IMG/VR virus record: IMGVR_UViG_3300035681_000021
Location: 1-64,000 of that record
Origin: a virus
Reading direction: 5' to 3' (one strand)
Length of the DNA stretch: 64,000 bases
Made by a program: the position numbers and the translations under genes. This document shows, piece after piece, positions 248 to 21,236 of this stretch (positions within the stretch are counted from its first letter, which is position 1; every line of letters begins with the position of its first letter). Under the pieces are notes generated by a model, which ran no database searches, was not told the DNA's origin, and worked only from the letters and a program-made list of their open reading frames with translations.

Positions 248-711
248 CTTTACTCAACCCATATGTCTTGCTTGGCATCGTACTTGCCCTACTTGGCAGT
301 TTTGGGGCTGGGTATTACAGTGGGGAGCAGGATGAGTATGAGCGCCAGCAGGTGGAGATTGCCCGTTTAAACGAGCAGGCACGGGAGACAGAACAACGCA
401 TGGCGGAGGTTGCCCAGACCTACGCCCAGACCTTGAAGAAAGCCAACGATGTTGCACGGATTAAAGAAACTAAGCTTCGTACTGATCTTGCCTCTGGCGA
501 GCGCAAGTTGTTCATTCCTATCAAAGCGCCCGACTGTCCCGTGTCAGTGTCCGAGCCATCCACCCCTGCCAGTGGAGATACAGAAACAAGAGCCGAGCTT
601 GACGGACGAGTTGCTCAAGCTCTTGTCGATCTCACCGCCCGAGGCGATCAAGCCATCCGGCAACTCAACGCCTGCATCGACCAGTACAACCAAGTGAGGA
701 GCATGAAATGA
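244..711 (+). CDS. Rz: Rz-like inner-membrane spanin
   Basis: A 155-residue protein with one N-terminal hydrophobic segment (about 5-24, ending in GAGYYSG) and then a long charged helical region rich in Glu, Gln, Arg and Lys (about 30-85). This is the layout of i-spanins of Gram-negative phages, which anchor in the inner membrane and cross the periplasm by coiled coil. A conserved-looking CPVSVSEPS segment and a C-terminal helix with one Cys follow. I chose the ATG at 244, which overlaps the upstream stop as ATGA, over the longer open frame from 172 whose extra residues lie inside the upstream gene. An Rz1-like lipoprotein is encoded inside it in another frame. The stop overlaps the endolysin start. 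Confidence 0.72.
   Translation: MTLLNPYVLLGIVLALLGSFGAGYYSGEQDEYERQQVEIARLNEQARETEQRMAEVAQTYAQTLKKANDVARIKETKLRTDLASGERKLFIPIKAPDCPVSVSEPSTPASGDTETRAELDGRVAQALVDLTARGDQAIRQLNACIDQYNQVRSMK
449..697 (+). CDS. Rz1: Rz1-like outer-membrane spanin lipoprotein, nested in Rz
   Basis: An 82-residue product read in the +1 frame wholly inside the Rz-like gene. It starts with a short basic stretch (HGLKK) and a hydrophobic segment, then a lipobox-like LASASC with Cys at residue 21. The mature part is rich in proline (PTVPCQCPSHPPLPVE). Basic start, lipobox, proline-rich mature region and complete nesting are the hallmarks of o-spanins, which sit in the outer membrane and fuse it to the inner membrane with Rz. 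The -3 lipobox residue is Ser rather than the usual Leu, a mild weakness. No better Rz1 candidate exists nearby. Confidence 0.68.
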   Translation: MLHGLKKLSFVLILPLASASCSFLSKRPTVPCQCPSHPPLPVEIQKQEPSLTDELLKLLSISPPEAIKPSGNSTPASTSTTK

Positions 712-1172
712 ACCTGACTGCCAACTTCTCCCTGCACGAACTGACCAAATCCGAGACAGCCCTGCGCATGGGTTTGGACAACACCCCCGGCCCAGTTGAA
801 ACCGAGTACCTCAAAATCTTGGCTGAACGTGTTCTCCAACCCATCCGCGATCACTTCCAAAAAGGTGTCAAGGTGAACTCCGGGTATCGCTCTCCTGACT
901 CAAATGCAGCGGTAAATGGGTCTCGTACCTCAGACCATTGCAAGGGCCAAGCAGCCGATATAGAGATTCCCGGCGTACCAAATGCGGAGTTGGCGCAGTG
1001 GATCATGGATAATCTGGACTACACCCAGTTGATTCTGGAGTTCTACACCCCCGGCATTCCTGACAGTGGTTGGGTGCATGTGAGTTACAACCCAGACAAC
1101 TTAAAGAAGCAGGAGTTGACCGCCATGAAAGTCGCTGGTAAAACGCAATATGTTCCCGGACTTGTAGCTTAA
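708..1172 (+). CDS. Peptidase M15-type endolysin (L-alanyl-D-glutamate or D-Ala-D-Ala peptidase)
   Basis: A 154-residue single-domain zinc peptidase. The family motif SxHxxGxAxD is present as SDHCKGQAAD, giving zinc ligands His77 and Asp84; the third ligand is His124 in WVHVS, with Glu111 a candidate catalytic acid. Upstream SGYRSPDSNAAVNGS matches the substrate-cleft region of the peptidase_M15_3 family. Such enzymes cut the peptide stems of peptidoglycan after holin release. There is no signal peptide, so export depends on a holin. The length is normal for the family. It starts inside the Rz stop codon (ATGA) and closes the lysis cassette. Bond specificity cannot be told from sequence alone. 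Confidence 0.88.
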   Translation: MNLTANFSLHELTKSETALRMGLDNTPGPVETEYLKILAERVLQPIRDHFQKGVKVNSGYRSPDSNAAVNGSRTSDHCKGQAADIEIPGVPNAELAQWIMDNLDYTQLILEFYTPGIPDSGWVHVSYNPDNLKKQELTAMKVAGKTQYVPGLVA

Positions 1173-4379: not shown

Positions 4380-5678
4380 ATGCCAGCGTTTGCTCTAACC
4401 GCCGCCGAGATTGCAGCAGCCGAAGCGGCTGCTATTGCCGCCGCAGAAGCCGCCGCGATTCAAGCCGCACAAGTAGCCGCCGCAGAAGCCGCCGCTGCTG
4501 CCGCAGCCGAAGCCGCCGCTGCACAAGCTGCCACACAAGCTGCCGCCCAAGCAGGTACACAAGCTGCCGCCCAAGCAGGTACACAAGCTGCCACACAGGC
4601 ATCGACAAGCGGTATTCAGGCTTTGGCGCAAGAGGTAGGCGCTACTGTGCAGCCCACAGGGATTGAAACGTTAAATGTGGCCCAAGCGCCTGTCGATGTC
4701 CCGCCGGGCTTCACTCCTGTTGGACAAGCTTCGGTTGACACTGCGATGAGTGCGATTACGCCCGCACCCAACATGTCTGCTCAAGCAGTTACGCCTAATT
4801 TTGATCCTACAAAGCCTTTTGCTAATCCCACATTAACCACACCCCCTGCTGACTTTGGCGCGGGCACTGGAGAAGCTCTTGGAAGAGGTTCTTATGCTTC
4901 ATCATCCGCGTCTGCTGCACCCACTCCTGCGTCTACCATACCGCCAAGACCAGACAACGCCTTATATCAATTCCAAGGCCCCACCACTCCTGAAGGCTTG
5001 CAGACTGGGGCACGTTTAGATAGTGCACTCCGACCGTCAGGAGACCCTTTCTACAACATCAATTCTGGGCACATCGACCAAACATTTGGTAGACCGGGTT
5101 TTGGTGTTAACGATGTAGCGGTTGAACCCAGTGCAGTGAGTTCTGCCTTGCCAGCACAACCAGCGACTGGACTTCAAGGGTTGATTGATAAAAGCATAGC
5201 CTACGCAAAAGATAACCCCTTGCAAACAGGTTTTGGTGCAATGTCGCTTTACAACATGCTTAATCAGCCCAAGCCTTATAAAAAAGAAAAGTACAAATCT
5301 ACGTTTGACTCCAGCACATACAGGCCATACGAACCCACACCTCCTAACCCTCCTTACCGCCCTCAGTATCCACAGTATGCGCAAGGCGGTTTAGCTGATT
5401 TGGGCGGGTACGCTGACTATGCTCATGGTGGGCGCATGCTTAAAGGGCCGGGGGATGGGATGTCAGACGACATACCTGCGACAATTGCTGGTAAACAACC
5501 CGCCCGCTTGGCCAACGAAGAGTTTGTAATTCCTGCCGACGTGGTTTCCCACCTCGGTAATGGCTCGTCTGAAGCCGGTGCCAAAGCGTTGTACAAGATG
5601 ATGGACAGAGTTCGTCAAGCACGCACAGGCAACAAGAAGCAAGGCAAGCAAATCAACCCTGAGAAATTTCTCGCTTAA
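4380..5678 (+). CDS. Alanine-rich internal virion protein candidate with conserved C-terminus
   Basis: A 432-residue protein. Residues about 5-75 are almost pure Ala with Glu and Gln, a strongly helical low-complexity region that includes an exact duplication of eight codons. The middle is Pro/Ala/Thr-rich and probably flexible. The C-terminus (about 330-432) is ordered and contains AQGGLADLGG, AHGGRMLKGPGDGMSDD and EEFVIPADVVSHLGNGSS, a signature I recognise from many aquatic podovirus proteins of unknown function encoded next to ejection proteins. It lies between the cupin and a gp13-like GNAT protein, so an internal or ejected role is plausible but inferred. Confidence 0.55.
   Translation: MPAFALTAAEIAAAEAAAIAAAEAAAIQAAQVAAAEAAAAAAAEAAAAQAATQAAAQAGTQAAAQAGTQAATQASTSGIQALAQEVGATVQPTGIETLNVAQAPVDVPPGFTPVGQASVDTAMSAITPAPNMSAQAVTPNFDPTKPFANPTLTTPPADFGAGTGEALGRGSYASSSASAAPTPASTIPPRPDNALYQFQGPTTPEGLQTGARLDSALRPSGDPFYNINSGHIDQTFGRPGFGVNDVAVEPSAVSSALPAQPATGLQGLIDKSIAYAKDNPLQTGFGAMSLYNMLNQPKPYKKEKYKSTFDSSTYRPYEPTPPNPPYRPQYPQYAQGGLADLGGYADYAHGGRMLKGPGDGMSDDIPATIAGKQPARLANEEFVIPADVVSHLGNGSSEAGAKALYKMMDRVRQARTGNKKQGKQINPEKFLA
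4537..4584 (+). repeat. Exact 24-base tandem duplication in the Ala-rich region
   Basis: The unit starting AAGCTGCCGCCCAAGCAGG occurs twice head to tail at 4537-4560 and 4561-4584 without a mismatch. It keeps the reading frame and adds eight residues (QAAAQAGT-like) to the helical Ala-rich segment. Exact identity suggests a recent slippage or duplication event. Confidence 0.9.
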
Positions 5679-6102: not shown

Positions 6103-7209
6103 ATGTCATTTGGCAGTCCAAGTTCCGGGCCAAACGAAACATACACACAGACATCCAACATACCTGAGTACGCTCAACCCTATGTTGAGCAGATGCTTGG
6201 CGCTGCGCGGGGAGAGATTTTTAATGCAGACGGCACAAGCATCAGACCGTACAAGCCGTTCAGCACCGACCCCAACGCGTACTTTGCTGGGTTCTCCCCC
6301 ATGCAGCAGCAAGCACAACGGCAAGCTGCAAATATGCGGGTTGCTCCTGAAACAGGTATGGCTTCTGGGCTGGCCGGTGCCGCCGGTATGGGCGCTATGG
6401 GCATGCAGTATGACCCGATGATGGCGCGGTCACAGCAGTTTGGCCAACGCCAAGCCGACCAGTACATGTCGCCGTACATGCAGAACGTGGTAAACGTACA
6501 GCAGGCAGCAGCCCAACGCCAAGCAGATATTGCTCGCACAGGCCGTAATGCACAGGCGGTGCAAGCAGGTGCTTTTGGTGGTTCTCGCCAAGCCATTATG
6601 GATGCCGAAGCTAACCGTGCACTGGCTGACCAGCAAGGAGCCATACAAGCCCAAGGGCTGCAAAGCGCATTTAGTCAAGCCCAGCAACAGTTCAACGCCG
6701 ATCAAGCCGCACGCATGCAAGCGCAGCAAGCCAATATTGGGCAACAGCAGTTTGGTTCTACCCTTGGTATGCAAGGACTTCAGACCGGGCTACAGGCCGC
6801 AGGCCAGTTGGGGCAACTTGGCCAGAATGTTTACGGCCAGCAAATGGGTATCAACCAGTTGCAGAACCAGTATGGCGCACAGCAACAGGCGCTGGAGCAG
6901 GCAAAGATCAACCAGCAGATTCAAGACTACGCTACCGCACAACAATACCCCATGTTGCAGTTGGCCAATATGAACGCATTGACCCGTGGGTTGCCTATGC
7001 AAGCATCTACAACACAACTATACCAAGCGCAACCAAGCATGGCTTCTCAATTGGCGGGTCTGGGCACTGCTGCTTACGGACTGTCTCAGTTAGGCGCTAC
7101 TAACTCAGGCGGCACAGGCTCGGTTGCAGGCAAAGCCACGGGCGGCTCCATTAAAGAAAAGAAACGCCCAGCCGGTTTGGCTGAGTTGGCCCTGATGAAA
7201 ATGCAGTAA
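6103..7209 (+). CDS. Gln/Ala-rich internal virion protein, T7 gp14-like
   Basis: A 368-residue protein starting SFGSPSSGPNETYTQTSNIP, followed by a long helical region (about 60-290) rich in Gln, Ala and Met, such as QQQAQRQAAN, QAVQAGAFGGSRQAI and QLGQLGQNVYGQQ. The motif AGAFGGSRQA recurs in such proteins of aquatic podoviruses. An Ala/Gly-rich hydrophobic patch near 90-105 could contact membrane. The C-terminus has TGGSIKEKKRPAGLAEL, a GG motif shared with several other proteins here. By composition and place between the GNAT protein and the giant ejection gene it is the likely gp14-like channel component. A good Shine-Dalgarno (AAGGAG) precedes the start. Confidence 0.55.
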   Translation: MSFGSPSSGPNETYTQTSNIPEYAQPYVEQMLGAARGEIFNADGTSIRPYKPFSTDPNAYFAGFSPMQQQAQRQAANMRVAPETGMASGLAGAAGMGAMGMQYDPMMARSQQFGQRQADQYMSPYMQNVVNVQQAAAQRQADIARTGRNAQAVQAGAFGGSRQAIMDAEANRALADQQGAIQAQGLQSAFSQAQQQFNADQAARMQAQQANIGQQQFGSTLGMQGLQTGLQAAGQLGQLGQNVYGQQMGINQLQNQYGAQQQALEQAKINQQIQDYATAQQYPMLQLANMNALTRGLPMQASTTQLYQAQPSMASQLAGLGTAAYGLSQLGATNSGGTGSVAGKATGGSIKEKKRPAGLAELALMKMQ

Positions 7210-7218
7210 GGAACACTC

Positions 7219-8844
7219 ATGCTTAACGTAAAAACTCTCACAGATACATTGTCCCGCATGGAGTTGCCGGACTTGCAGAAGTATGCTGCGATGCACAAAA
7301 ACGACCCTTATGTTGTTTCACTGGCACTGTCTATTGCAAACCAGAAAAAACAAATGATGGTCGGTAAAGCAGGCCAAGCAGGAATGCAGCCGCAGCCTAA
7401 AGTGGTTGACCAACAAATTACTCAGATGGCTGCTGCACCGCAGCAACAGATGCTTCCCGAAGATGTAGGCATTGGCCAACTCCCCGCCCAGAACATGCAA
7501 AACATGGCTGAAGGCGGCATTGTTGCGTTTGAAGATGGTGGCAGCGTGCCGGGGTATGCAGGCGGTGTGTTTACTGGGGAAGAAGATATGCCTGCGTGGC
7601 TTAAAGTTTTTCCTCCCGAGTCTGGCCTTCGCCGAGTGTATAGAGCGGCAAAACAATACGACAAAAATAACCCACAGCCGGTTATTCCTAAAACGGTAAC
7701 TAGCCCATCTGGGCCGTTTGACTACCCCGCTGGTGCCAAGGTTGTTCCTCCTGCGCCCCCTGTTGCCACATCTAAGGCTCCACCACCTGCGGCTGCGGCT
7801 AAACCTGCGGCCAAACCTGCTGCTCCTGCGGCTGCTGCTTCCGCTGCGCCTGTTCCTGCTGCGGCTTTAATTGATCCGTTGGCGGGTCTTACAGCGTTGG
7901 ATACAAAAGCACCGACTGTGGAAGATTCAATAGCAGCTGCTAAAAAACTTGGTGACGACACAGAAGTGCGTAAAAAGTTAGAAGAGTATGTTGCAAGCCA
8001 AAAAGAAACTGGTGAAAAATCTATCAAAGCTTTTGAAACAGGTATTGCCGCACTGCCAAAATCGTATGAGAAATACGAAGCCCGCTTGCAAAAAGAAGAA
8101 GCTGAGGCCGCAACAGATAAACAAAAAGCAATGGGCATGTCTATCTTTAAGGCAGGGCTGGCCATGATGTCTGGCACATCCCAAAACGCTTTTGAGAATA
8201 TTGGCAAGGGCGCAATGGTTGGGTTGGAAGACCAACAAGCAGCACTCAAAGACTTTAAGAAAGCCCAGCGTGAGCGCGATAAAGCTTTTGCCGATATTGA
8301 GGCTTCACGTCTGGCAGATCAACGTGGCGATTTAAAAACTAAGCTAGAGCTTGAGAACCGCGCCGCAGACAGAAACGCCAGTGCTCAAGGCAAGATGATA
8401 GATGGCATCGCCAAGTTGTTTGACACAAACACAACAAACGCTCGCGGTATTTACACCATCGGCCTTGAAAACGTTAACAGAAACAAGAGCACGATGTACA
8501 CAACCGGGGCAGACATTGGCAAACAAAGAATGGCGGATGCAACAGCACTGCAACGACAAAGAGACGCAGATGCTGCCGCACTTGAACGTACAAGAATGCA
8601 AGCAAACGCACTTTCACCGGAAGAGCGCGTCTTGTCAAACGACAAACTGTTTGGCAGAAAGATGCAATTGACCGCCGCCTCAGCAGGCGTGCGTGGCGAT
8701 ACAGCACTCAAAGAAGCGTGGGCCAAATCGCCGTATCTGCAAACACAGTACCCAAATGTGGATGACTACGTTAGAATGATGTCAGGCTCCTCTGGCACTG
8801 CTGGAGGCGAGTTCAAAGTCTTGGGGTCACGACCAGCCCCGTAA
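7219..8844 (+). CDS. Internal virion protein candidate, T7 gp15-like position
   Basis: A 541-residue protein. Residues 1-40 are helical (TLSRMELPDLQKYAAMHKND), then comes a low-complexity Gln/Met/Gly part with AEGGIVAFEDGGSVPGYAGG. A Pro/Ala-rich linker spans about 175-210. The C-terminal half (about 230-490) is a long charged coiled coil. No enzymatic motif is visible. The location between a gp14-like and a giant gp16-like gene suggests an ejected protein that lines the trans-envelope channel. The start is preceded by the leader GGAACACTC directly before ATG, a translation-start cassette that reappears at 26104 and 32604 on the other strand. Confidence 0.5.
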   Translation: MLNVKTLTDTLSRMELPDLQKYAAMHKNDPYVVSLALSIANQKKQMMVGKAGQAGMQPQPKVVDQQITQMAAAPQQQMLPEDVGIGQLPAQNMQNMAEGGIVAFEDGGSVPGYAGGVFTGEEDMPAWLKVFPPESGLRRVYRAAKQYDKNNPQPVIPKTVTSPSGPFDYPAGAKVVPPAPPVATSKAPPPAAAAKPAAKPAAPAAAASAAPVPAAALIDPLAGLTALDTKAPTVEDSIAAAKKLGDDTEVRKKLEEYVASQKETGEKSIKAFETGIAALPKSYEKYEARLQKEEAEAATDKQKAMGMSIFKAGLAMMSGTSQNAFENIGKGAMVGLEDQQAALKDFKKAQRERDKAFADIEASRLADQRGDLKTKLELENRAADRNASAQGKMIDGIAKLFDTNTTNARGIYTIGLENVNRNKSTMYTTGADIGKQRMADATALQRQRDADAAALERTRMQANALSPEERVLSNDKLFGRKMQLTAASAGVRGDTALKEAWAKSPYLQTQYPNVDDYVRMMSGSSGTAGGEFKVLGSRPAP

Positions 8845-8862: not shown

Positions 8863-11800
8863 ATGCCAATTTACAGCGTACAAGGCCCGGACGGACGGAT
8901 TTACGATGTGGAGGGGCCTGCTGGCGCTTCTGAACAAGACATTATTGCTGCTGTAAGACGGCAGTTAACTCCGCAACAGCCTAAAAAACCACAAGAAACT
9001 ACGTTCGGTGGGCAAACCAAGGAATTCTTTAAAGGTCTTGTCCCCGGCGCTATTGGGCTTGTTGAACAAGCCGGTACTGGTATATCAGCACTGCTGCCAG
9101 AAGAACAAGAAAAAGCCACACAACAATACATTAAAGAAGTTGCGGCTACAGCCAAGGCTCCGTTTGCCGCTGCGCCGGGGTATGAAGACACGGTGGGGCG
9201 CAAGTTTGGTGAAGCCACAGGTTCTATCGCGCCGTTCCTTGCCACTGGGCCGTTTGGTCTGGCAGGGCGTGTAGCCGGATACGGCCTTGGTATTGGCGCT
9301 GGTGCTGGCACACAGGTAGAGAAGTCTGCCGCTGAAGGGGCTACAGAAGGACAACAAACTGCCTCCACTGCACTTGGTGCTGTGGTAGGCGCATCAGAGA
9401 TGTTTGCCCCCACACGTATTCTGAAACGTCTTGGGGAGCCTGTGCTTGAGGGTGCCACGTCGTATGTAAAACGTGCGTTGATGGCTGGCGGTGAGGAAGC
9501 CGCACAAGAAGCCGCAGCACAAGCCGCACAGAACATTATCAGCAAAGGTATATACAAACCTGAGCAACAAATCATTGAGCAGGTTGGTGAGTCTGCCGCC
9601 TACGGCGGTGCAGTCGGCGCGTTAGCGCAAGGGTTGTTGGACTTAGCTATTGGTCGTCGTGCGCCTACAACCCCGCTTACAGACGAGGTAAAACAAGCCC
9701 GTGAAGAAGCGGCTGCGCAGGCAGAACAAGAAAAGATACGGCTGAACAGCCCTGAGTACGCCCAAGAAGTATTCCAGAAGACGCAGGAATTGGAAGCGCA
9801 GCGCACGGCGCTCAAACAGCAATTAATTCCAATAAGGAAAGGCGAATCCCCAGAAACGGATTACGCACACAACCGTGAAATCAACCGCCAGATCGAGGCC
9901 ATAAACAAAGAACTCAAGCCATTGGCTGAGGAGTATGTGCGTGTCAAGCCTATTCTGAAACGTGCTGAGGAAGAAGCACGAGTTGCCAAGCTAACTCCGT
10001 ATGAGTATGCGTTGGGCATGGAGCCTGAGGAGATTGGGCAGGCACCTGCTGAGCCTGAGCTGTATGAACAGCAGATTGCCGCGCCGCCTGCGGCACCGAA
10101 GGCGGGAGATGCTGCGGCGCGATATGCCGCTGAGAGCATCCAATTGGCCAACGAACAACAGCTTTCTAGTGAAAAATCCCCCAAAGATGCGGAGGCCGAC
10201 TACGTTAAATATTTGATGCGTAACCCCAACTTGGCTGAAGAAATTGAAAAAGGTAGATTGCAATTACCCGGCCTACCTACTGGTGTGCGTAACTCTGCCG
10301 TGTTGGACGCGTTGAAGTTGCAGCTTGCGCCCATGCGCAAGGAGAAGGCAACCGCAGAAAGAACTGCCTTTGAACAAGAGATGGGCACACGCAAAACAGC
10401 GTTTGGTGTTACCAAACCAGAGAAAGAAACTCCAGAGATACAGGCGTTCACTTCGTACATGGACGACCTCAAGAGCCAGCGTGATGACGTTGGTGATGAC
10501 ATGTTCTTCAAGTACATGGTCGAGCCAAAGCTGGAGAAAATTAGTGAGGGTAAACCCCCAGTCATAGCGGTCAATCCACAGTTGATGCCGTTTGCCAACA
10601 TCAAACTGGCAGAACGCTCACGGGAAAAAATAAACAGTCTGTTTGATGAAATAGATCAGGCTAATAAGGATAGAGATGTCGCACTGCGCTCAAATAACCA
10701 AGACGCTGCAACAGCGGCGTTTGAAAGAGGCAACCAAGCGTTAGAACAGCTCAACGCTTTTACAGAACCCACGCCTGCTGGAGAACTGACAAAAGGAAGG
10801 TTCCCAAGCGCCAAGGTAAGCCCACAAGCCAGCGTCTACGCCAAAGAAGTGCTACGGGTGCGCAATGAACAGAACACGGCTTTAAACACAATTGAAGACA
10901 AGATTGACCGTTTGCGTCGCGGTGAAACGTTGGGTAAAAATGAGATGGCGGCTACTTCGCCAGCCATACTGGCTAAACAAGCTGAGGAAGCTCGGGGCAA
11001 GTACATCTCTGCGGTGTTGGAAGAAGCCGCCATCCACCGTCGTGTTGCTGGTAAACCCGCACTGACTTACGACGAAGCCATCAAGGCCTCGTCGCGCATT
11101 CATGATGTGGTGGGTGAATGGTTGAATCGCGCACAGGCAACGCCTGTAGCGCCTGAGTTTGAAGAAGTTGTGGTGCAACCAGCGCAGATGCGGGCAAACA
11201 AACTTGTCCGTGGCGCTGTTACCAAACGTGTTTTGAAGACCCGTGATCTGGCCACAACGCCATTGAATGAAATTGCACGCTTGAGTGATAAAGAAATCAA
11301 GCACTTCAAAGCGCAGATTGCCAAAGTTGTTGACAGCTTATCCCAACTGCCATCGCAGGTTTCACGTGAAACACCAGTACTGAAACAGCAGTTTGCCAGC
11401 ACTGAAGCACAGAAAGTTGCTGAAGCCAAAGGTGAAACCGCCAAGACACTTGGTGGAGAACTACGCCGTCGCACAGAATTTGTGCGGAACTTGATGGCTA
11501 AGCCGCCTCTCAAGCCGTTGACAGAAGAAACTCGCAAAACGTTAAACCTGAAGTTGCTTGACCGCGCCGTTGACATCATGGACAGCGGCAAAGCCTCACG
11601 CGGTTTGTTGGATGCTGTTGAACCTATTGTCACAAACTTGGCTGAAGGCCGTGAGGTTCTTTCGCAAGATATCCAAGCCCTTGATGATGCCATAAAGCTG
11701 TATGAACGTACAGCCCAAGAAGGTGAGATTGCTGGTGAAGGCGCAGCAGGTCAAGGCCAGTTGTTCCCTGAGACCCGCAAAGACATTGGTTATATCCGTG

Positions 11801-14800
11801 CCACTCCCGCCAACTTTGCCAAATCCCCACAGATCAAGCCTGTGTGGGAAGCGCTGGATCAAGCACGCAAGCTCAAGGCAAAAACAGAAGCCAACCAGAA
11901 AGCGCGTTCTGTCAGAGACAAACAAGGCTTTGCGCAAGTTGAAGCAATAGAAGAACAACTTGAAGCCATTAAAAACCAAATGCAGTTTTTCCTGCTCAAG
12001 CCGGGAGACTTCAATATTGGCAAGTACTCGAATGCAGACATTGCAAAAATGTTTGCGTCATACCCAGAAGCAGGCGTTACAAAAGAAGACAAGCTGCTGA
12101 TGGATCGGTATTTGCAAGTGTCTAGACAAAGTATTGGTAAGACTGCTGAGCAAAAAGAACAAGCCATGTCCGTGTTTACTGAGGAAGAAAAACAAAAAGT
12201 AAACAGGTTAATCCAAGACTTCAACGCAAGCAAAATTCCTGAGTACGAAAAGAACGTTAAGCAGGCGCTGCAAGCACTTTCATTGGGGCAACGCCTTGAA
12301 AGCACAAACAATCGCTTAGTTGAGTTAATGCAAGACAACAATGCGGCTGTGCGTAAACAATCAGAAGCAGCCCGCAAAATTGTTGAGCCACTACTGGACA
12401 AGTTAAAGCTTATCAAAGACAGTTTGCGTAACTCTGTTCTGTTGACTGATGGCCAACGCGCAATGCTTGATTCCGAAATTGCATTGCAAGCACAACGTGG
12501 CGCATACAAAGACGCTATGGCCAAGGCGATGGGCAAAGCCCGTCAACGCCTGTCTGATACGTTGGGTGAATTGCTTGATCCTGAGATCGAACGCGCACGT
12601 CGTGCTTTGAAAGCTGCTAAGACACGTCTGGCCACAGTTGAGTCGCAGATTGAAGCGGCCAAGAAAGAAATGACTGAGGGTACTGGCCAAGCGCCAAACC
12701 TGATTAACAACTTGCAGAAAGTGCAAGGGCTTGTTGAGAACATTGAAAAAGCGGAAACAGAACTGGCCGACTTGCAAGAAGCCCGTTTTGGTGAGATTGA
12801 GAACGATGTTGTTGTCACCGAAGCCATGTTGGACAAAGACCTCAAATCAGAACGCGAGTATTTAGAACTGCTTGAGCGTCAGTTGGCAGACATGCGCAAG
12901 GAATCTTTGACCGCTGTTGAACTTGGTGGTCGTGGCGAACTGGGTAAGTTGAAGTACCCGTTCTCTGCACAACGTTTAGAAACGCAAGTAAAAACACAGC
13001 AAGCTGCGGTTGATGAAGCACAGAAACGTGCGAACGAATTCCAAAAAGATGTGGAAGTCTGGTGGCCTAAGGTTACTGCTGCGTTCAAGAAGGACGGCAT
13101 TAGCATCAAAGACTTGCCCGGTGCAGTGTTTAAGAAAGGCCGCAAAGTTGCGGACATCAGCACGCCGGAACAAAAGCGCCTTGATGATTTGCGTGACAAA
13201 GGTGTGCAAGCCGCAAAAGAAGTTGACGAAGCCGCAGTACTTCAGCGGGTCAAAGACAAACAAATTGAAATGTTTGATGATGAAATCTTTGACGCACGCG
13301 GTGAAGTGCAATCGTTCATGGGGCCAGAAAACATGGAGCAGTTGGCCGACATCATGGCCGACCCCAAAACCACCAACGTCAAACGCGTACAGGCAACCCT
13401 CAAGCTGGGCGCTATGCAGAAGCTGGCTTCGTTGGAAGCACAGAAAGAAGTTTTTCTTACAGGCAAACCTGCACCAACACCCAAGGCAGCTACTGTGCCG
13501 AGCACTTCTGCGTTGGCGGCAGCTAAACCATTCCGTACTGGGTCAGGCGTAGCGAAAGCGTTTACTCCAGCAGAAATGGATGAGATGGCTCGTGCTGATA
13601 TACGCGATGCCAACGAGCTGGCCAAAAAGATTCTGGGCACCAAAGCACCCCAGCTGAAAGAGCCAAGCAAACGCAAGCAAGGCAAGCTGCTTGACCCCAA
13701 CATGGGGTTGTTTGACGACTTTGAATTTTCTCGTGGCACACCAGTTAAAGGTTTGACCAAGGCTGAGCTTGAAGCCGAACTTACCGCCGGTATGGGAGAG
13801 CCAGTTACTGGGCGCAATGTAGAAAAACAAATCGCTGACAAGTTGGCGGTGTATGAAGACCTTGATGATTACCTGAGCAAATTTAAACCTGCTTCTCGTG
13901 ATTGGTATAAAGGGCAGATACCTAAAGACGCTAAAGGCTTTGTGCAAGATGGTAAAGCGGTACTGTTTGCCAACAACATTGGTAAAGGCCACGGACTGGG
14001 CGTACTGCTCCACGAAGTCGGCGTGCATTTGGGATTTCGCAACTTCTTTAACGAAGGCCAGTACAACGCGTTGGTTAAGACAGTCAAAAACTGGGCGACC
14101 AAAACTGACGATTCAATGGAAGCGCGTGTTGGTAAAGCCGCCATGCGCAGGGTTGAAGCTGCGCAAACACCTGAAAATCAGATTGACGACGAGTTGTTGG
14201 CGTACGCTGTTGAAGAAGCCATGCAGATGGGTGTAGAACCTGTTGGCGTTAAAGGCGGCAACGCAGTTAAGAATTGGTTGAAGATGGTGGTGGACGGGTT
14301 CAAGAAAGCGCTTGAGAAGTTTGGCATCAGCGCCAAGAACTTGACTGCGGGCGACTTGGTTAACTTTGCCTACGGCGCAGCGCACCTTGAACTTAAAGGA
14401 ACTTGGCACGGCACAGGTGTTAAGTTTGATATGTTTGACCACACCTATATGAGTTCTGGTGAAGGCGCTCAAGCATTTGGCTATGGTACATATCGTGCAC
14501 AAAGATACGGCACCGCTGACTACTATCGCGATGTTGCACAAGGTTCGCAGCTTAAAAAATGGTTGGAGCGGCCTGATGTGCAAGCGTGGAGAGCTAGTCA
14601 AAGGCCAGAACTAATACGTAAAGCGCCCGACGTTGTTCCTGACTGGATGCTTGAAAACGCAATAGAAGAAGCGGCAAACCCGTATGCAGGCATTTCTCCA
14701 CACATGATGTTTACGGATTCTATTGAACGCCAAATAAAAGAGTTGAAAGATTTGCGCAGCGACCCCAACATGCAGGATGTTGGTTTTGGTATTCAAACAG

Positions 14801-17800
14801 ACAAAGAGTTTAAAGAAACGATTGATAAACTCAAAGAATTTGCAAAAAATGCAGACGGGTACATAGATGCGCCCTTTGAAAAACCTCTGTATAAAGGTAA
14901 ACAATTCTATAACTTGTACGACACAAACCCCGCAGCGCACGCTGTTTTGAGAGACTTTGAAGTGGCGTTGGGTAAGGGCGAAAAACCTTCTTTTAAAGAA
15001 ATAATTGCAGAAATAAAAGTGGATGCCGCAAACACAATGAAAGTGTTTGAAATGGCTACAACCAGTCCAGATGAAAATTTTGTTTATAAGCGTAACAAAC
15101 AAATATATGAAGATGCAGACAAGCTTAACCTTGATGACTTTAAGTATCGCTTAGTATCTGGCCCACCTGTGCCACAGCCTTCTGGCTACATGTTGCGCAC
15201 GCTTCATACGCGTCCAGAGAATGAGTACATCCACTGGGATGACGCTGCGGATAGTCAACCACCAGTTGTGAAAGATGTGTTCAAGCGCATCTATGATTCT
15301 TTAGATAAAACTCAGCAACAAAACTTTGATCGTTCGATTGGCACATCGCCAACTGATCGCCAAAACGGACAGCAGTTGTATGAAGCACTGAGCGCCGTTC
15401 TTGAAAAAGGCGGTATGCCCAGCGAGTTGTCTGACCGGTTTGCGTCCGAGATGCTTCACGCTGAAGGTATTGCGGGCATTAAGTTTTTTGACAACCGTTC
15501 CAGAACCAAAAAAGAAGGCACGTTTAACTACGTTGACTTTGGCGACAAAGATGAAGGTGCGCAGATCATTGCCACTGACATCAACCCAATCAATCGTACA
15601 AACCCTCCGGCGGGAGATATGCTGTTCTCGCGTTCAGAAGAGTTCACAAATCCTGAACTTGCCAAACAGGGTGAATTTATTAAGAAAATTGTGGCTACAG
15701 ACAAAACGTTGTGGCAAAAAATAAAAGCCAACTTAACAGGTTTGGCTTTTGAGACACAGCTTGTGGATAGGTTTGCAGGCTTTGAGCGTTTGGCCAAATA
15801 CATGGATGAGGTCAAGGGAACGCAGATGCTGTATTACTTGCGCATGTACGACCAGCGCATGAACTTTGTGTCCCAAGCAGTATCCAACGGCGCACCGGCA
15901 ATCGTGGAAAAGACAAGAGCTGACGGCAAGATTGAGCGCTTGCTTGAGAGCAAAGAGAGCGCCAACATACACAACGTTGTGCAAATTCTGAAAGATGCGC
16001 AGCCTATGGTTGGCAATGCGGAAGCGGTAAACCGTGTGTTTACTTTGTACATGGCGGCTATCCGTGCAGACAACAAAGGTTTGGCTTCGTTGAACTTTGG
16101 TGAAGACGTTACACAAGCGTTGCTTGATAAAACTATGGCCGCCGTCAAAAACACCCCCGGCTTAGAAAAAGTTTTGAAGCAAGCAAAAGACGAGTACAAC
16201 GAGTACAACCGCAACTTAATTGAGTTTGTTGTCAGCACTGGCGCACTGTCAAAAGAAGTTGGTAAACGTTTGGTTAGAGAAAACGACTACATACCCTTCT
16301 ATCGTGAACGCAACGGCGTAGCCGAACTTTTAATTGGTGGCGAGTCTCCTATCCGCATTGGTAGTATTGCCGAACAGCCATATCTGCATGAGCTTGTTGG
16401 CGGCGACAGGCCGATTCTTGACTTCATGACAAGCTCGGTGCAAAACACCAACTTGTTGATGGACATGGGTATGCGCAATCTGGCTACCAAGAACGCTGTG
16501 TTTGAGTTGGTTGATCTCAAAGCTGCTAAGTTTGTGAAGATGTCTGCTGGCCCTGACGTTGTTAAATTCCGCGATGATGGTGAAGATCGTTACGCTGTTA
16601 TTGCTACCGAAAAGGTCAAGATTGGCAACAAGGAGTTTGATACCGGCGTACCCGCCGACATACTGGTCAAAGGCATGGAGGGCATCCCCACACAGATGCC
16701 AGCAATGTTGCGCGTCATGGCTTTCCCAGCACAGATATTGCGCAAAGCTATTACCCTCAGCCCTTTGTACACAGCCAAACAATTGTTCCGTGACTCCTTG
16801 GCCGCGCCTATTCTTTCTGGCGCAGACTTTATGCCTGTCATTGGTGCGTTGAAAGAAATTAACTCCGCTACCAAAAAGACACTTGAGCGCCGCGGTGTTA
16901 CCGGAGGCCAGCAGTTTGTTGGTGGCGCTGAAGACTTGACCAAGATTCTGCGTGATGTGTCTGAAGGTAAGCCGGGCTGGATGACAGCACTTGGCAAGCT
17001 TGAAGCCATGAGCATGGAGGCAGATGCCACAACCCGCCGTGCGCAGTACAACAGCTACCTTGAGCAAGGTCTGTCTGAGATGGAGGCAACGTTGTTGGCG
17101 CTGGAGTCCATGAACTTTAACAAGCGCGGCGCGTCACCCTCAATCCATGTGGCCAACTCCCTGATACCTTTCTTCAACGCACAGATTCAAGGTCTGAACG
17201 TGTTGTACAAAGCGTCTATGGGTAAGATGCCATTCAACGATCAGTTGCGTATTCGTGAAAAAATGATGCAGCGTGGTGCCATGATGGCTGTTGCCAGCCT
17301 CGCCTACGTCGCCATAATGGAGGACGACGAAGCGTACAAGAACGCAACGCCCGATCAGAAATACGGCAACTGGTTTATCCGTGTGCCGGGTTTAGACGAA
17401 CCCATCAAACTGCCTGTGCCTTTTGAAATTGGCTACATCTTCAAAGCGTTGCCCGAGGCGTTGTACAACAGCATGGTCAGTGAGCACGGTGGTGAGGAAG
17501 CAGTCAAAGCTTTCAAACAAATCCTTCTCCAGACAATTCCCGGTGGCTCGTCTTACGGCATCCCACAGATCATGAAACCCGCCATCGAGGCAGGGCTTGG
17601 CAAGTCGTTCTACACAGGTCGGGACATCTTGTCTGCGCGGGAGAAAGAGCTGTTGCCCGAAGAACAGTTCCGCGCCAACACATCCGAGCTGGCCAAAGGT
17701 ATCGGTAAAGCATTTGGCATATCCCCAATTGTGTTTGAACAACTTGTCAGCGGCTACACCGGCACTATGGGGCTTGCGTTCATGCACGCACTGAGTGTGG

Positions 17801-18219
17801 CCGCGCCTACGGATGAGAGTCCTGAGAAAGCCGTTAAACGTTTGTCGGAGTACCCAATTCTTGGCGGTGCGTTCCAACCAAACGACGCTGGTGGCATCAT
17901 CAACAGCGTGTATGAGCGCATGAATGAAAACATCAAAGTCAAGCAGTCGTTCGACAAGATGGTTGAAGAAGGACGCATGTCGGAAGCCAAGGCGTTGTTG
18001 CAAAGACGAGGTAACGAGTACTTGCAGGCGGAAATGGCGTACAGCTTTAAGAGCGACATGAACAAACTCACTCAGGCTGAACGGGCGATTGCGGCATCAA
18101 ACATGTCACCTGAAGCCAAGCGTGAGCAGCTTGATAAAATCAGGAAGATAAAGATCGCCGTTGCTCAAACGGTGAGAGAGGTTTCCGATAAAACCATACG
18201 CCTAGCAACCCCTTTCTGA
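8863..18219 (+). CDS. Giant polyvalent ejection protein: zincin, ADP-ribosyltransferase-like and LPD38-like domains
   Basis: A single 3118-codon frame. Residues 1-35 (YSVQGPDGRIYDVEGPAGAS) form a short module seen at the start of other phage ejection proteins. Residues about 50-260 are Gly/Ala-rich and hydrophobic, possibly membrane-inserting. Residues about 270-1600 are mostly charged coiled coil. A zincin motif HEVGVH lies at 1717-1722. An ADP-ribosyltransferase-like domain begins with WHGTG at 1848-1852, continues GEGAQAFGYGTYRAQ and ends near 2250 with GIKFFDNRSR and YVDFGDKDEGAQII. The region about 2600-2900 (ILRKAITLSPLYTAKQLFRD) matches my memory of LPD38, a polyvalent-protein domain. 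It is the last gene of the internal-protein series and presumably enters the cell with the DNA to modify host targets. Confidence 0.75.
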   Translation: MPIYSVQGPDGRIYDVEGPAGASEQDIIAAVRRQLTPQQPKKPQETTFGGQTKEFFKGLVPGAIGLVEQAGTGISALLPEEQEKATQQYIKEVAATAKAPFAAAPGYEDTVGRKFGEATGSIAPFLATGPFGLAGRVAGYGLGIGAGAGTQVEKSAAEGATEGQQTASTALGAVVGASEMFAPTRILKRLGEPVLEGATSYVKRALMAGGEEAAQEAAAQAAQNIISKGIYKPEQQIIEQVGESAAYGGAVGALAQGLLDLAIGRRAPTTPLTDEVKQAREEAAAQAEQEKIRLNSPEYAQEVFQKTQELEAQRTALKQQLIPIRKGESPETDYAHNREINRQIEAINKELKPLAEEYVRVKPILKRAEEEARVAKLTPYEYALGMEPEEIGQAPAEPELYEQQIAAPPAAPKAGDAAARYAAESIQLANEQQLSSEKSPKDAEADYVKYLMRNPNLAEEIEKGRLQLPGLPTGVRNSAVLDALKLQLAPMRKEKATAERTAFEQEMGTRKTAFGVTKPEKETPEIQAFTSYMDDLKSQRDDVGDDMFFKYMVEPKLEKISEGKPPVIAVNPQLMPFANIKLAERSREKINSLFDEIDQANKDRDVALRSNNQDAATAAFERGNQALEQLNAFTEPTPAGELTKGRFPSAKVSPQASVYAKEVLRVRNEQNTALNTIEDKIDRLRRGETLGKNEMAATSPAILAKQAEEARGKYISAVLEEAAIHRRVAGKPALTYDEAIKASSRIHDVVGEWLNRAQATPVAPEFEEVVVQPAQMRANKLVRGAVTKRVLKTRDLATTPLNEIARLSDKEIKHFKAQIAKVVDSLSQLPSQVSRETPVLKQQFASTEAQKVAEAKGETAKTLGGELRRRTEFVRNLMAKPPLKPLTEETRKTLNLKLLDRAVDIMDSGKASRGLLDAVEPIVTNLAEGREVLSQDIQALDDAIKLYERTAQEGEIAGEGAAGQGQLFPETRKDIGYIRATPANFAKSPQIKPVWEALDQARKLKAKTEANQKARSVRDKQGFAQVEAIEEQLEAIKNQMQFFLLKPGDFNIGKYSNADIAKMFASYPEAGVTKEDKLLMDRYLQVSRQSIGKTAEQKEQAMSVFTEEEKQKVNRLIQDFNASKIPEYEKNVKQALQALSLGQRLESTNNRLVELMQDNNAAVRKQSEAARKIVEPLLDKLKLIKDSLRNSVLLTDGQRAMLDSEIALQAQRGAYKDAMAKAMGKARQRLSDTLGELLDPEIERARRALKAAKTRLATVESQIEAAKKEMTEGTGQAPNLINNLQKVQGLVENIEKAETELADLQEARFGEIENDVVVTEAMLDKDLKSEREYLELLERQLADMRKESLTAVELGGRGELGKLKYPFSAQRLETQVKTQQAAVDEAQKRANEFQKDVEVWWPKVTAAFKKDGISIKDLPGAVFKKGRKVADISTPEQKRLDDLRDKGVQAAKEVDEAAVLQRVKDKQIEMFDDEIFDARGEVQSFMGPENMEQLADIMADPKTTNVKRVQATLKLGAMQKLASLEAQKEVFLTGKPAPTPKAATVPSTSALAAAKPFRTGSGVAKAFTPAEMDEMARADIRDANELAKKILGTKAPQLKEPSKRKQGKLLDPNMGLFDDFEFSRGTPVKGLTKAELEAELTAGMGEPVTGRNVEKQIADKLAVYEDLDDYLSKFKPASRDWYKGQIPKDAKGFVQDGKAVLFANNIGKGHGLGVLLHEVGVHLGFRNFFNEGQYNALVKTVKNWATKTDDSMEARVGKAAMRRVEAAQTPENQIDDELLAYAVEEAMQMGVEPVGVKGGNAVKNWLKMVVDGFKKALEKFGISAKNLTAGDLVNFAYGAAHLELKGTWHGTGVKFDMFDHTYMSSGEGAQAFGYGTYRAQRYGTADYYRDVAQGSQLKKWLERPDVQAWRASQRPELIRKAPDVVPDWMLENAIEEAANPYAGISPHMMFTDSIERQIKELKDLRSDPNMQDVGFGIQTDKEFKETIDKLKEFAKNADGYIDAPFEKPLYKGKQFYNLYDTNPAAHAVLRDFEVALGKGEKPSFKEIIAEIKVDAANTMKVFEMATTSPDENFVYKRNKQIYEDADKLNLDDFKYRLVSGPPVPQPSGYMLRTLHTRPENEYIHWDDAADSQPPVVKDVFKRIYDSLDKTQQQNFDRSIGTSPTDRQNGQQLYEALSAVLEKGGMPSELSDRFASEMLHAEGIAGIKFFDNRSRTKKEGTFNYVDFGDKDEGAQIIATDINPINRTNPPAGDMLFSRSEEFTNPELAKQGEFIKKIVATDKTLWQKIKANLTGLAFETQLVDRFAGFERLAKYMDEVKGTQMLYYLRMYDQRMNFVSQAVSNGAPAIVEKTRADGKIERLLESKESANIHNVVQILKDAQPMVGNAEAVNRVFTLYMAAIRADNKGLASLNFGEDVTQALLDKTMAAVKNTPGLEKVLKQAKDEYNEYNRNLIEFVVSTGALSKEVGKRLVRENDYIPFYRERNGVAELLIGGESPIRIGSIAEQPYLHELVGGDRPILDFMTSSVQNTNLLMDMGMRNLATKNAVFELVDLKAAKFVKMSAGPDVVKFRDDGEDRYAVIATEKVKIGNKEFDTGVPADILVKGMEGIPTQMPAMLRVMAFPAQILRKAITLSPLYTAKQLFRDSLAAPILSGADFMPVIGALKEINSATKKTLERRGVTGGQQFVGGAEDLTKILRDVSEGKPGWMTALGKLEAMSMEADATTRRAQYNSYLEQGLSEMEATLLALESMNFNKRGASPSIHVANSLIPFFNAQIQGLNVLYKASMGKMPFNDQLRIREKMMQRGAMMAVASLAYVAIMEDDEAYKNATPDQKYGNWFIRVPGLDEPIKLPVPFEIGYIFKALPEALYNSMVSEHGGEEAVKAFKQILLQTIPGGSSYGIPQIMKPAIEAGLGKSFYTGRDILSAREKELLPEEQFRANTSELAKGIGKAFGISPIVFEQLVSGYTGTMGLAFMHALSVAAPTDESPEKAVKRLSEYPILGGAFQPNDAGGIINSVYERMNENIKVKQSFDKMVEEGRMSEAKALLQRRGNEYLQAEMAYSFKSDMNKLTQAERAIAASNMSPEAKREQLDKIRKIKIAVAQTVREVSDKTIRLATPF

Positions 18220-18358
18220 TGCCAACAAAAGCTTGGGTGCGGTACTTGTAGGGAATTGAGGCGCGTAGCCCCAATTCCTTTACTTTCTCAACATCTAAAC
18301 CGGGAACAAAAAACCCCTCCCCCGGTTTAAGTGTCGCCCACGGATAGATTGTTTCCAT
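18140..18358 (-). CDS. Small conserved phage protein of unknown function
   Basis: A 72-residue protein starting METIYPWATLKPGEGFFVPG. This opening resembles small proteins found beside replication genes in many phages, with no known function. The chosen ATG lies inside the 3' end of the upstream primase-helicase gene and is preceded by GAGGAAGAAC. An upstream in-frame start is possible but less well placed. The last 80 bases overlap the 3' end of the giant rightward gene on the other strand, so it is the last gene of the leftward arm. A rightward terminator is embedded in it. The sequence from KELGLRAS to VWFYRK looks like a small DNA- or protein-binding fold but shows no clear motif. Confidence 0.65.
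   Translation of the reverse strand: METIYPWATLKPGEGFFVPGLDVEKVKELGLRASIPYKYRTQAFVGIRKGLLGVWFYRKPLSPFEQRRSLSS
18252..18280 (+). terminator. Rightward intrinsic terminator inside the antisense gene
   Basis: GGAATTG at 18252-18258 pairs with CAATTCC at 18272-18278, extended inward by GGC/GCC after an A.C mismatch, with loop GCGTA. The hairpin is followed by TTTACTTTC. It lies 33 bases past the stop of the giant gene and would end late transcription. The same bases encode part of the leftward gene at 18140-18358. Confidence 0.6.
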
Positions 18359-21236
18359 TGAACTGTTCTTCCTCAAAAGTTATGTGCATAGCGTTGACAC
18401 GCATGGACGGGCCGTTGGTCTTGCCCAGCATATCTTTCTTGGAATACTTAACGCGGAACATCTTCTCCATCTGCTTCTTGAAGTCGTCGTAGCTGAAACT
18501 CATGCTGACGCAGTGCTTCCTGAGAAGCTGTTCCTCAATGTAGTACTCCCTGAACCCCTCCGCAAGCGTCCCGTGCTCAACACGCCCAAGTACTTTTGAT
18601 CGGGTGAGTGACTTGTCAACAGCCTCACCATCCCCCCATGCAGCCATAAGGCGGCCTTCAGCTTTCTTGATAATGATGAAGCTTCCGTAGTTGTCTCCGG
18701 TGTAGGCATTCAACACATCCTCAGCGGTGCGCACACTGCCACGGATAATTCCACGGGCTTTCTCAACAATGACTCTGAGAGCGTCAATGACTTTCTGAAC
18801 CTCTACATCAATGATATTGGCGTAGTCTCTGCGAAGAAGCACAGCAGCCGCAACAATAACGGTGCAGCCAGCATGCCAGTAGCGTTCGTCGTCGTCAAAG
18901 TTCAATACCTTTTTCAAGTGTTTGTGTGTTTTCTTCACAACCTGTTCTGCTATGTGCTGGTTCTTTGTAAGCCATCTAATCCACGCTTCACCAGCTACGC
19001 CGTAGTTGTGTTTCATCTGCAACAAAATTTCACGTTCTTGCGGAGTCCATTCCAACTTAATGTTTGGATTCCATTCCAACATACGCAAAAGCTCACCGTT
19101 TGAACTGAACTTCCTTGCCCCTGCCATGTAGTCTGTCAGGCTTTCGTTGGAAGTCATGGTGCAGGTTGTCTTCCATGTCGTGTTGTTGATGCGTTCCTTG
19201 TTCGCACCGGACTCCATACGCTCCTTGCCCTGCGCTTCAGCAAAGTCAAAGATAAACGTTGGTGCCCATTCCATGTTGGCGCGTTGAGTATTTGTTATCT
19301 CATCAATCAGGAGCGGCATGCTGTTGAGCAGACCCGCACGTTGCTGCATCGCAACCGGAGATGTGCCCTTGCCTGTCCTGTACCGCAGTGGGTGTCCCCA
19401 AACGCCAGCCTTCGCACTCAGAACCAGTGACTTACCAGTACCAGAATGGCGTGAGCCGATGTGCCACACGAAGCCCTCATACTCAGTGAACCGCATCAAG
19501 GGCGAACCGAACGAGTCCAGACACACAGCTAACGCCGTTTCCATGTTTGGTTTGTTGACGAATATGGTCTGCCACAACTCACGCCACTTATCGATACTGC
19601 CAGCCCCAGATGTATTGCGGTTGATGTTCTCAAGGCCGGGCATCGGGACGCGGGTCTCTCCACCATCTTTACTGAACACGCGGTGGTTGTAAACAAAGCT
19701 GTCGTTCTCTTGCCAGCCACATTGGTACGGGACAACAATCGGTTTCTTGGACTGCGATGCCTCGCCTACACAGGCGCGGACATACTCATAGAGCTGTTTA
19801 TCGAAGCCCGCAAATGTGCACACGATGTTTTGACTAGCTAACCATTTGAGCGTCTCGTCTTTGCTCACGATTGATTTCTGCGGGAAGTTAAGTGTAAACA
19901 CACCTTCTGGACGCACAGCGGCCATGTGAACCAGATGGTCGTCCTCCATCTTGAGCAGGTCAACCACAAACAAGTCGTACGGAACAAGCTGAACAGTCTT
20001 CTTGGATTTCTTGCCGTCCTCATCTTCTTCTGTCTTGACAAAGTACACGCCGCCGTTCTCGCCGTAGCTGTAACCGCGTGGTGGCAATGGGCGTTTAACT
20101 GCATCAATGTGTTCTGGGGCGTCGCCGTCTTCTGCATCCTCAAGCGCAAAGAACTCTTCTTCAACAAAGTCTTCGCTTACAGTGGTCATCGGGATGACCT
20201 TCTCTGTGTTGTCAGCTCTGATCTCACGCCCAAGAATCAACGGGTTTGTGATCTTCCCCCAGTGCGGACACGCGGTACAGATGCCGGGGTTCAGAGAGTC
20301 CATTGCCGCGCAGGAGTACGGCCCTTTTATCTCAGCCAGCTTCTGATTCATCCTGTCCGACGTGTATGGGTGCAACTCAGACAGCCACACAGCTTTCTCA
20401 ACGCCATCATCACAGACCTTCGCCCACGACAGCAACGCTCTCCAGATAGGTTCTTTGCCGTCCTCTTGGGCGGTGGCGACATAGTCAGCAATCTGGGCGC
20501 AGTGCGGTTGGAACTCATCAAAGATTGTGCGGCTGTTCTGCATCATCTTTACTTGAGCGGCAGTCTTGGCATTCTTCGGCCTCGCCCCCGGCAACATGAT
20601 AGGGTCAGGTTGCAGCACTGCTTTTTCTTTTAGGTTGGTGTTGATGACTTCAGCAAACGCATCGAAGTCAAACAGGTCGCCTTCCATCAACAGCTTTACA
20701 TGAAGCGGTACGGCATACTTCTTCTTGTGGTTCATAGTGCCCGGCACACGCATCAACCGCGCCGCATCTGCGGTGACATTCATGTCGATGACCATGCCTT
20801 CTTGCTTGCACAGGAGTTTTATGTTCTGCGCAACAGGTCGCCATTCAGCAATCGTCATGTCGCGTGTGATCGGCCAGTAGCAGTGAAGCCCACCACCAGA
20901 ACCAACAATCCACGGCTTGCCGAGCTTGTCCAGCCCGACCTTGACCATGAATGCGTCCAGCGCCAGCACAGCTTCTTTTTTTGATGCGTAACCATCCAAG
21001 TCAACAAAGAAAGACTTTATGTGCGTGGCTTTGTCAGCCTCACGCTTGTTGCCGTTGAAACAAGAGACCGCATAGAAGATGTCGCAATGGTCAGCGTTCC
21101 AACTGTCTATGTGGGGTTGCAGTTCCTCAATTGTGTCCTTGAACACATGTTGTTTTTTTCTTGTGAGTTCTACCGCACAGTACGAGCCTAAACCCGAAGA
21201 CGGCAAAACCACCGCTAGGAACTCGAGCGGAGTCAT
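18327..21236 (-). CDS. Primase-helicase: AEP-type primase fused to a DUF927-like ATPase
   Basis: A 969-residue two-part replication protein. The N-terminal third shows archaeo-eukaryotic primase features: FFVDLDGYASK near 75-85 with the metal-binding Asp pair, and GSGGGLHCYWPI near 110-122. Cys residues in CTACPHWG near 330 may bind zinc. The second half has a Walker A at about 590-600 (GSRHSGTGKS), a Walker B near 644 (PLLIDEITN) and GSPLMRFTEYEGFVWHIG before it, as in DUF927 helicase-like ATPases. It should open the duplex and make primers for the polymerase encoded upstream. The gene is leftward and its 3' end overlaps the next small gene. Confidence 0.75.
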   Translation of the reverse strand: MTPLEFLAVVLPSSGLGSYCAVELTRKKQHVFKDTIEELQPHIDSWNADHCDIFYAVSCFNGNKREADKATHIKSFFVDLDGYASKKEAVLALDAFMVKVGLDKLGKPWIVGSGGGLHCYWPITRDMTIAEWRPVAQNIKLLCKQEGMVIDMNVTADAARLMRVPGTMNHKKKYAVPLHVKLLMEGDLFDFDAFAEVINTNLKEKAVLQPDPIMLPGARPKNAKTAAQVKMMQNSRTIFDEFQPHCAQIADYVATAQEDGKEPIWRALLSWAKVCDDGVEKAVWLSELHPYTSDRMNQKLAEIKGPYSCAAMDSLNPGICTACPHWGKITNPLILGREIRADNTEKVIPMTTVSEDFVEEEFFALEDAEDGDAPEHIDAVKRPLPPRGYSYGENGGVYFVKTEEDEDGKKSKKTVQLVPYDLFVVDLLKMEDDHLVHMAAVRPEGVFTLNFPQKSIVSKDETLKWLASQNIVCTFAGFDKQLYEYVRACVGEASQSKKPIVVPYQCGWQENDSFVYNHRVFSKDGGETRVPMPGLENINRNTSGAGSIDKWRELWQTIFVNKPNMETALAVCLDSFGSPLMRFTEYEGFVWHIGSRHSGTGKSLVLSAKAGVWGHPLRYRTGKGTSPVAMQQRAGLLNSMPLLIDEITNTQRANMEWAPTFIFDFAEAQGKERMESGANKERINNTTWKTTCTMTSNESLTDYMAGARKFSSNGELLRMLEWNPNIKLEWTPQEREILLQMKHNYGVAGEAWIRWLTKNQHIAEQVVKKTHKHLKKVLNFDDDERYWHAGCTVIVAAAVLLRRDYANIIDVEVQKVIDALRVIVEKARGIIRGSVRTAEDVLNAYTGDNYGSFIIIKKAEGRLMAAWGDGEAVDKSLTRSKVLGRVEHGTLAEGFREYYIEEQLLRKHCVSMSFSYDDFKKQMEKMFRVKYSKKDMLGKTNGPSMRVNAMHITFEEEQFNGNNLSVGDT

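Follow-up and report, generated by a model that had tools for sequence, protein, structure and literature searches.

We identified a giant phage polyvalent protein of 3118 residues, encoded at the end of the virion genes in the 64,000-nucleotide stretch analysed here (the window), which is part of a 66,411-base IMG/VR virus record. The protein carries at least two unrelated enzymatic domains, recognised by motif, model and fold search, together with an LPD38 domain. A zincin-like HEXXXH metallopeptidase is followed by an exchangeable payload, here a predicted ADP-ribosyltransferase (ART), and the pair is bracketed by matched Phe-Ser-Arg (FSR) tags. Based on computed observations of the open reading frame, the domain identities (at the level of motif and model), the syntenic context, payload exchange, and the tags and their conservation, we put at about 0.5 the probability that the giant is a virion polyprotein with a metallopeptidase that cleaves at the FSR tags or beside them, freeing itself and the ART, which would modify the host early in infection. 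Polyvalent proteins, their metallopeptidases and their ARTs were known already; new here are the matched tags and the payload slot that they bracket.

The giant gene (8863–18219, plus strand) is a single uninterrupted frame of 3118 codons with an ATG start that takes up 14.6% of the window, as an earlier note on this DNA described, and it matches PHROG 18222 (E 2e-28). The ratio dN/dS is well below 1 in every module, and this purifying selection indicates a translated, functional gene. The record also encodes terminase, portal, capsid, tail, primase/helicase, DNA polymerase and helicase proteins. The nearest isolates by portal are Pelagibacter phage HTVC027P, phage 023Pt_psg01, DSL-LC04 and Planktothrix phage Pag-Yong1 (approximately 42–44% identity). 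Gene order is strongly kept among relatives. Upstream of the giant lies a conserved block with, in order, a 432-aa gene (4380–5678, plus strand), a 368-aa gene assigned to the PHROG 'DNA ejection protein' (6103–7209, plus strand; E 3e-8) and a 541-aa gene that adjoins the giant (7219–8844, plus strand). The 368-aa gene is syntenic in 51 of 77 loci, although many of the remaining loci end before they reach it, and the 541-aa gene in 48 of 77. On the far side of the giant, the late module ends in 67 of 77 loci at a convergent primase/helicase-type gene (18327–21236, minus strand). The 432-aa protein, directly upstream of the ejection-type genes, is Ala-rich and has a Gly-rich C-terminal stretch (GPGDGMSDDIPATIAG). 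In two loci, L055 and L057, fusion or extension brings the 368-aa gene to approximately 900 aa, and a separate 541-aa gene was not found. The L057 giant is correspondingly shorter, so the borders between these proteins can move. At the start of the window (172–1172), Rz-like and M15 peptidase genes directly precede a large virion structural gene.

The N-terminal module (residues 1–280; 8863–9702, plus strand) contains the Gly/Ala segments that had been described as membrane-type. These stretches are hydrophobic, but only weakly, with Kyte-Doolittle maxima of 1.18 (residues 59–77) and 1.31 (residues 245–263). The module is swapped as a unit among otherwise much closer relatives (L012, L023 and L048), with 25–28% identity versus 76–90%, perhaps matching the host envelope. 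It is followed by a long charged region (residues 281–1610; 9703–13692, plus strand). A continuous coiled coil of 1300 residues had been proposed here and was not borne out: between residues 281 and 1640, where the sequence is charged with 4–16 Pro/Gly per 100 residues, no 100-residue bin has a 3.5-residue (heptad) periodicity, and the region is at most long and probably helical. The C-terminal chassis (residues 2271–3118; 15673–18216, plus strand) was detected in 152 phage records. Within it, LPD38 (residues 2822–2999; 17326–17859, plus strand) matches PF18857 with E 4e-30 and 105.6 bits against a Pfam cut-off of 27. The LPD38-like region of the earlier note is therefore real at these residues, but residues 2550–2820 are merely chassis. 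The giant has no Pfam match to an N4-type virion RNA polymerase (vRNAP) domain or to a lytic transglycosylase domain of the T7 gp16 kind.

At the level of motifs and model, residues 1641–1840 (13783–14382, plus strand) are a zincin-like metallopeptidase. Its motif, HEVGVH (H1717–H1722; 14011–14028, plus strand), stands exactly where the earlier note placed it, but has the form HEXXXH, with one more residue than the classical zincin motif HEXXH, and the classical reading was rejected. HEXXXH is a recognised variant in the metallopeptidases of polyvalent proteins (PMC5512222), and the relatives found keep the motif as HExGxH. Six residues are invariant in 51 of 51 sequences, namely H1717, E1718, H1722, E1777, E1784 and E1785, and the last three are candidates for the third metal ligand. 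We predicted a two-domain structure with AlphaFold2 from 51 sequences (mean pLDDT 78, pTM 0.59); an earlier model from 11 sequences was poor (pLDDT 63). The model places H77-E-x-G-x-H82 in a helix (71–87) and the invariant E137, E144 and E145 in another (131–148). This helix order agrees with the core described by Iyer et al., in which HEXXXH lies on the first of two C-terminal helices and a Glu on the second (PMC5512222). That core also has a sheet of three strands ahead of the motif; the strands of the model in this region, at positions 21–24, 52–55 and 58–62, have a pLDDT of only approximately 57–70. The protein has no match to Pfam MPTase-PolyVal (PF18818), and a PDB fold search with the two-domain model gave nothing significant (best E 0.2). 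The term zincin therefore rests on the motif, the helix order and family comparison. The comparison extends to LPD38 giants of isolated phages, which carry HEXXXH at the same place (HEIIVH in PTXU04, HEVLAH in phiARM81mr and HELVVH in Vibrio phage 1.232.O) and whose metallopeptidases match those of the window family by profile (97%, E 1e-10).

The predicted ART (residues 1845–2245; 14395–15597, plus strand) carries WHGTG at W1848, as the earlier note reported. H1849 and Y1877 are invariant in all 51 sequences, and position 2225 is D in 38, E in 12 and L in one. In the model these residues fall in strand 1 (207–211), strand 2 (236–239) and strand 5 (581–585), respectively, which is the H-Y-D arrangement on strands 1, 2 and 5 known from ARTs of the HYD2/polyvalent type (PMC5512222). 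Of the profile searches proposed in the earlier note, the one for LPD38 passes its cut-off, but PF18760 (ART-PolyVal) scores 14.6 bits over the first half only, below its cut-off of 31.2. In 19 of 33 IMG/VR relatives PF18760 matches weakly, exactly where expected, and one distant relative exceeds the cut-off. Structure prediction of the metallopeptidase and ART gave strands in the right order and matches among viral models, but no match among solved structures. Foldseek against viral models returned ART-PolyVal-like proteins with E values of 4e-9 to 8e-9, these alignments spanning several domains with a large rmsd; the cleanest single-domain match, to a 'PolyVal ADP-Ribosyltransferase', covers 139 columns at 4.3 Å (E 1.6e-3). 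The best match, A0A6J5PFI7, is an uncharacterised large polyvalent protein of an uncultured Caudovirales phage, with 47% identity over 358 columns. A profile comparison between the window ART and the canonical ART-PolyVal of the distant relative L093 found nothing. The window ART is predicted to work like ART-PolyVal, and by curated Pfam score is not a member of PF18760. The conserved active sites in 51 sequences, the AlphaFold2 model, the Foldseek results and the placed PF18760 matches together support the earlier description of a polyvalent protein with zincin-like and ART domains.

A predicted helical, hypervariable insert interrupts the ART (residues 1896–2095; 14548–15147, plus strand). 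Within the window's ART type, it retains approximately 31–37% identity where its flanks retain 70–90%, and its dN/dS is 0.29–0.41 versus 0.05–0.17 in the modules after it, a roughly threefold excess that is still below 1. Such fast change would fit target recognition or evasion.

We confirmed 84 relatives of the metallopeptidase-ART stretch in IMG/VR. None of 81 pattern matches in GTDB genomes was confirmed, and the metallopeptidase with the start of the ART found no relative at E 0.01 among 50,697 phage records; the module is therefore known here only from metagenomes. The IMG/VR relatives share a syntenic chassis with a slot between the metallopeptidase and the C-terminal chassis; this slot contains an ART, of which there are two types, a different domain, or no domain at all. 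In 50 of 56 distinct relatives the slot contains an ART of approximately 300–500 aa starting with GTWHG; the two types match by profile (99.7%). L048 and the window are 70–74% identical in metallopeptidase and C-terminal chassis, but only 6–36% in the ART, which in L048 is of the other type, and the ART cassette has therefore been exchanged. The slot is almost empty (31–32 aa) in L085–L087. L080 and L081 carry a different domain, accompanied in L080 by a second zincin motif, HELTH.

The FSR tags lie at the edges of this exchangeable module. Tag 1 (F1622-S-R in FEFSRG; 13726–13734, plus strand) is upstream of the metallopeptidase and tag 2 (F2255-S-R in DMLFSRS; 15625–15633, plus strand) directly follows the ART, in a low-confidence linker of the model where S2256 is invariant (51 of 51). 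These are the only two FSR in the 3118 residues (1622–1624 and 2255–2257; 0.27 expected). In 53 dereplicated family proteins, which share descent, we counted 82 FSR in 5,830 junction residues versus 6 in 152,947 residues elsewhere, the motif having been noticed after the fact. FSR occurs in both junctions of 31 of the 53 proteins, and the next commonest tripeptide does so in 4. If F/L/Y/M-S-R/K is allowed, the tag is present in all upstream junctions but one and all downstream junctions but three. L085 and L087 keep the tags around a slot that is almost empty, so the tags bracket the metallopeptidase itself. The FSR codons vary (11 and 15 combinations, including CGN/AGA and TCN/AGT), indicating that the constraint acts on the peptide, and the surroundings differ as well (FEFSRG upstream, I/M-L-FSR downstream). 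The two sites are therefore not copies of one DNA repeat, an explanation that codon variation rejects. Nor are such tags shared by all LPD38 giants, since FSR is missing from phiARM81mr and from BcepIL02 gp70. The former has HEXXXH, and the link between HEXXXH and FSR is thus not strict; the latter lacks HEXXXH too, and so LPD38 giants without this motif can lack such tags.

Matched tags also occur in other polyvalent proteins, which we chose by their ART alone, regardless of tags. FSR itself is not a general tag, since just 16 flanks among 71 other ART proteins contain it; the general feature is the matching of flanks within a protein. In the 64 measurable proteins, ART flanks match better within than between proteins (mean score 19.55 versus 15.90, z 8.1, permutation p ≤ 5e-5), and the same holds for the 49 single-ART proteins (z 7.2). 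Matched pairs include ITASRQR/ITASRQR, RIDFSD/RIDFSD, FARG/FARG and KSADR/KSADR, with synonymous differences between the copies; these pairs were taken from the highest-ranking proteins, and the permutation statistic refers to the full set. FSR directly precedes and follows the ART in USP25 and in orf60 of Pseudomonas phage F116. The latter resembles the window protein in having zincin motifs upstream, but these are HEXXH, its ART is a canonical ART-PolyVal (E 1e-39) and no LPD38 was found. In L162, STAR occurs five times (0.03 expected; positions 402, 636, 990, 1187 and 1553), between InPase, an HEMWH motif, GNAT, ART and DUF7178, and in L136, SLR tags at 750, 935 and 1092 flank an HEGRH motif (854) and the ART (959–1085). 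The tags differ from phage to phage (FSR, STAR, LSRER, SLRS, ITASRQR, FARG, KSADR) and are repeated at domain borders within one protein. Matched tags in unrelated phage giants suggest, without proving, that these are cut into working pieces. We propose only tentatively that such punctuation is general: phage polyvalent proteins would be polyproteins whose cleavage tags are specific to each protein and co-evolve with a zincin of the same chain. In that case the sequence could reveal where domains end and which products processing yields.

For the window protein, we infer cleavage at the tags, the identity of the cutting protease, and the activity and target of the ART as follows. A late polyvalent protein, built as a polyprotein, would be packaged in the virion, its N-terminal and C-terminal (LPD38) chassis parts serving packaging and ejection. 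The excisable module between them would consist of the HEXXXH metallopeptidase and then the exchangeable payload. Before, during or after ejection, the metallopeptidase would cut at or beside both FSR tags and so release itself and the ART in the host cytoplasm; the released ART would modify a host macromolecule there early in infection. The earlier note envisaged a protease delivered to the host along with the ART; since the metallopeptidase is bracketed by matched tags, a protease that attacks the host seems less likely than self-processing.

A rather unlikely, though substantial, alternative is that the giant is packaged and ejected whole, and that FSR marks uncut linkers, either conserved because they help to pack, chaperone or thread the protein or left over from the shuffling of domains at repeated linkers. 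The N4 vRNAP, which carries a metallopeptidase domain yet is packaged unprocessed (PMC5512222), is a precedent that counts against cleavage. Tags can also come to match when a linker is duplicated as domains are shuffled, and both the exchange of an entire ART with sharp edges near the linkers in L048 and the recombination-derived patchiness of synonymous divergence between the window and L003 speak for this alternative. However, two non-homologous junctions keep the same core of three residues despite differing surroundings and codons, and in other phages the tag sequence changes while both copies still match. Improbable, in our view, is that the tags are real cleavage sites cut by the prohead protease or by a host protease specific for basic residues. 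A tag that ends in R or K is what such proteases typically recognise. P1 DdrB is cleaved before packaging (PMC5512222). Yet FSR is absent from the capsid and from every other virion gene scanned in the window, with one other FSR in 17,913 aa, on which grounds a prohead-protease motif was rejected, and the differences in tag between phages are easier to reconcile with a protease of the same chain than with one from the host. It is very improbable that the giant is simply an internal core or channel protein like T7 gp16, with its metallopeptidase and ART as inactive structural relics, since, despite a position at the end of the late block beside ejection-type genes and a weak ART Pfam match, the catalytic residues are invariant in 51 sequences under purifying selection and a gp16-kind transglycosylase domain is missing.

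The polyprotein reading supposes that the 3118-residue protein is, as seems probable by analogy, packed in the virus particle. Packaging and ejection would follow JC1 gp69, an LPD38 giant with 51 unique peptides in CsCl-purified virions (PMC9144972), and the N4 vRNAP. The gp16 position named in the earlier note agrees with the nearby ejection-type gene and a block that is syntenic in most relatives, but is an analogy, no lytic transglycosylase or T7 homology having been found. JC1 gp69 and BcepIL02 gp70, DarB-like giants of Bcep22-like podoviruses, likewise lie after virion-associated genes and before minus-strand genes, with LPD38 approximately 115 aa from the C terminus. In contrast to the window protein, they carry transglycosylase, methylase, helicase and LPD3 domains in place of the ART, and BcepIL02 gp70 combines a transglycosylase with the lack of HEXXXH and FSR. 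The vRNAP of Roseovarius Plymouth podovirus 1, the ART-PolyVal prototype, is also a virion giant with ART and metallopeptidase, but is of the N4 type, and its ART compares only weakly with that of the window by profile (23%, E 9e-4). T4 Alt is an ejected virion ART that acts early (PMC5512222), as we propose here, but belongs to the R-S-E class and is a separate protein rather than part of a polyprotein. The polyvalent proteins surveyed by Iyer et al. in 2017 are similarly giant late proteins with several unrelated enzymatic domains, an LPD domain, and a HEXXXH or HEXXH zincin-like metallopeptidase plus ART (PMC5512222); the window protein differs from them in its fixed slot with an exchangeable payload and its matched tags. 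Autoprocessing was proposed in that survey, whose main text describes no tag, cleavage motif or bracketed payload slot (PMC5512222). In the searched literature, which covered non-subscription papers, none pairs FSR with polyvalent phage proteins.

Matched tags are concrete candidate separation sites in many polyvalent proteins, simply testable by altering the tag, and should allow the products of processing and the borders of effectors to be predicted. With the payload slot fixed, effector repertoires can be collected from metagenomes by way of the chassis. Where the slot holds no ART (L080, 6393–7871; L081, 10571–11131; L083; L084), it opens with an MSRRAFLRG-type sequence inside the giant phage protein, resembling a twin-arginine signal (PF10518, E 0.04–0.13). 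Synonymous divergence between the window and L003 is patchy along the giant gene (0.00–0.25), a sign of recent recombination between close relatives. The giant frame of L020 (4379–14214) is split by a frame change before LPD38, with no N in the assembly, which is either a true frameshift or a sequencing error; an apparent split in L031 was rejected as an assembly gap with N. The distant relative L093 (8486–13900) has a HEIGAH metallopeptidase followed by a canonical ART-PolyVal above the Pfam cut-off, with FSK before and FSI after, and thus has the same layout outside the close family.
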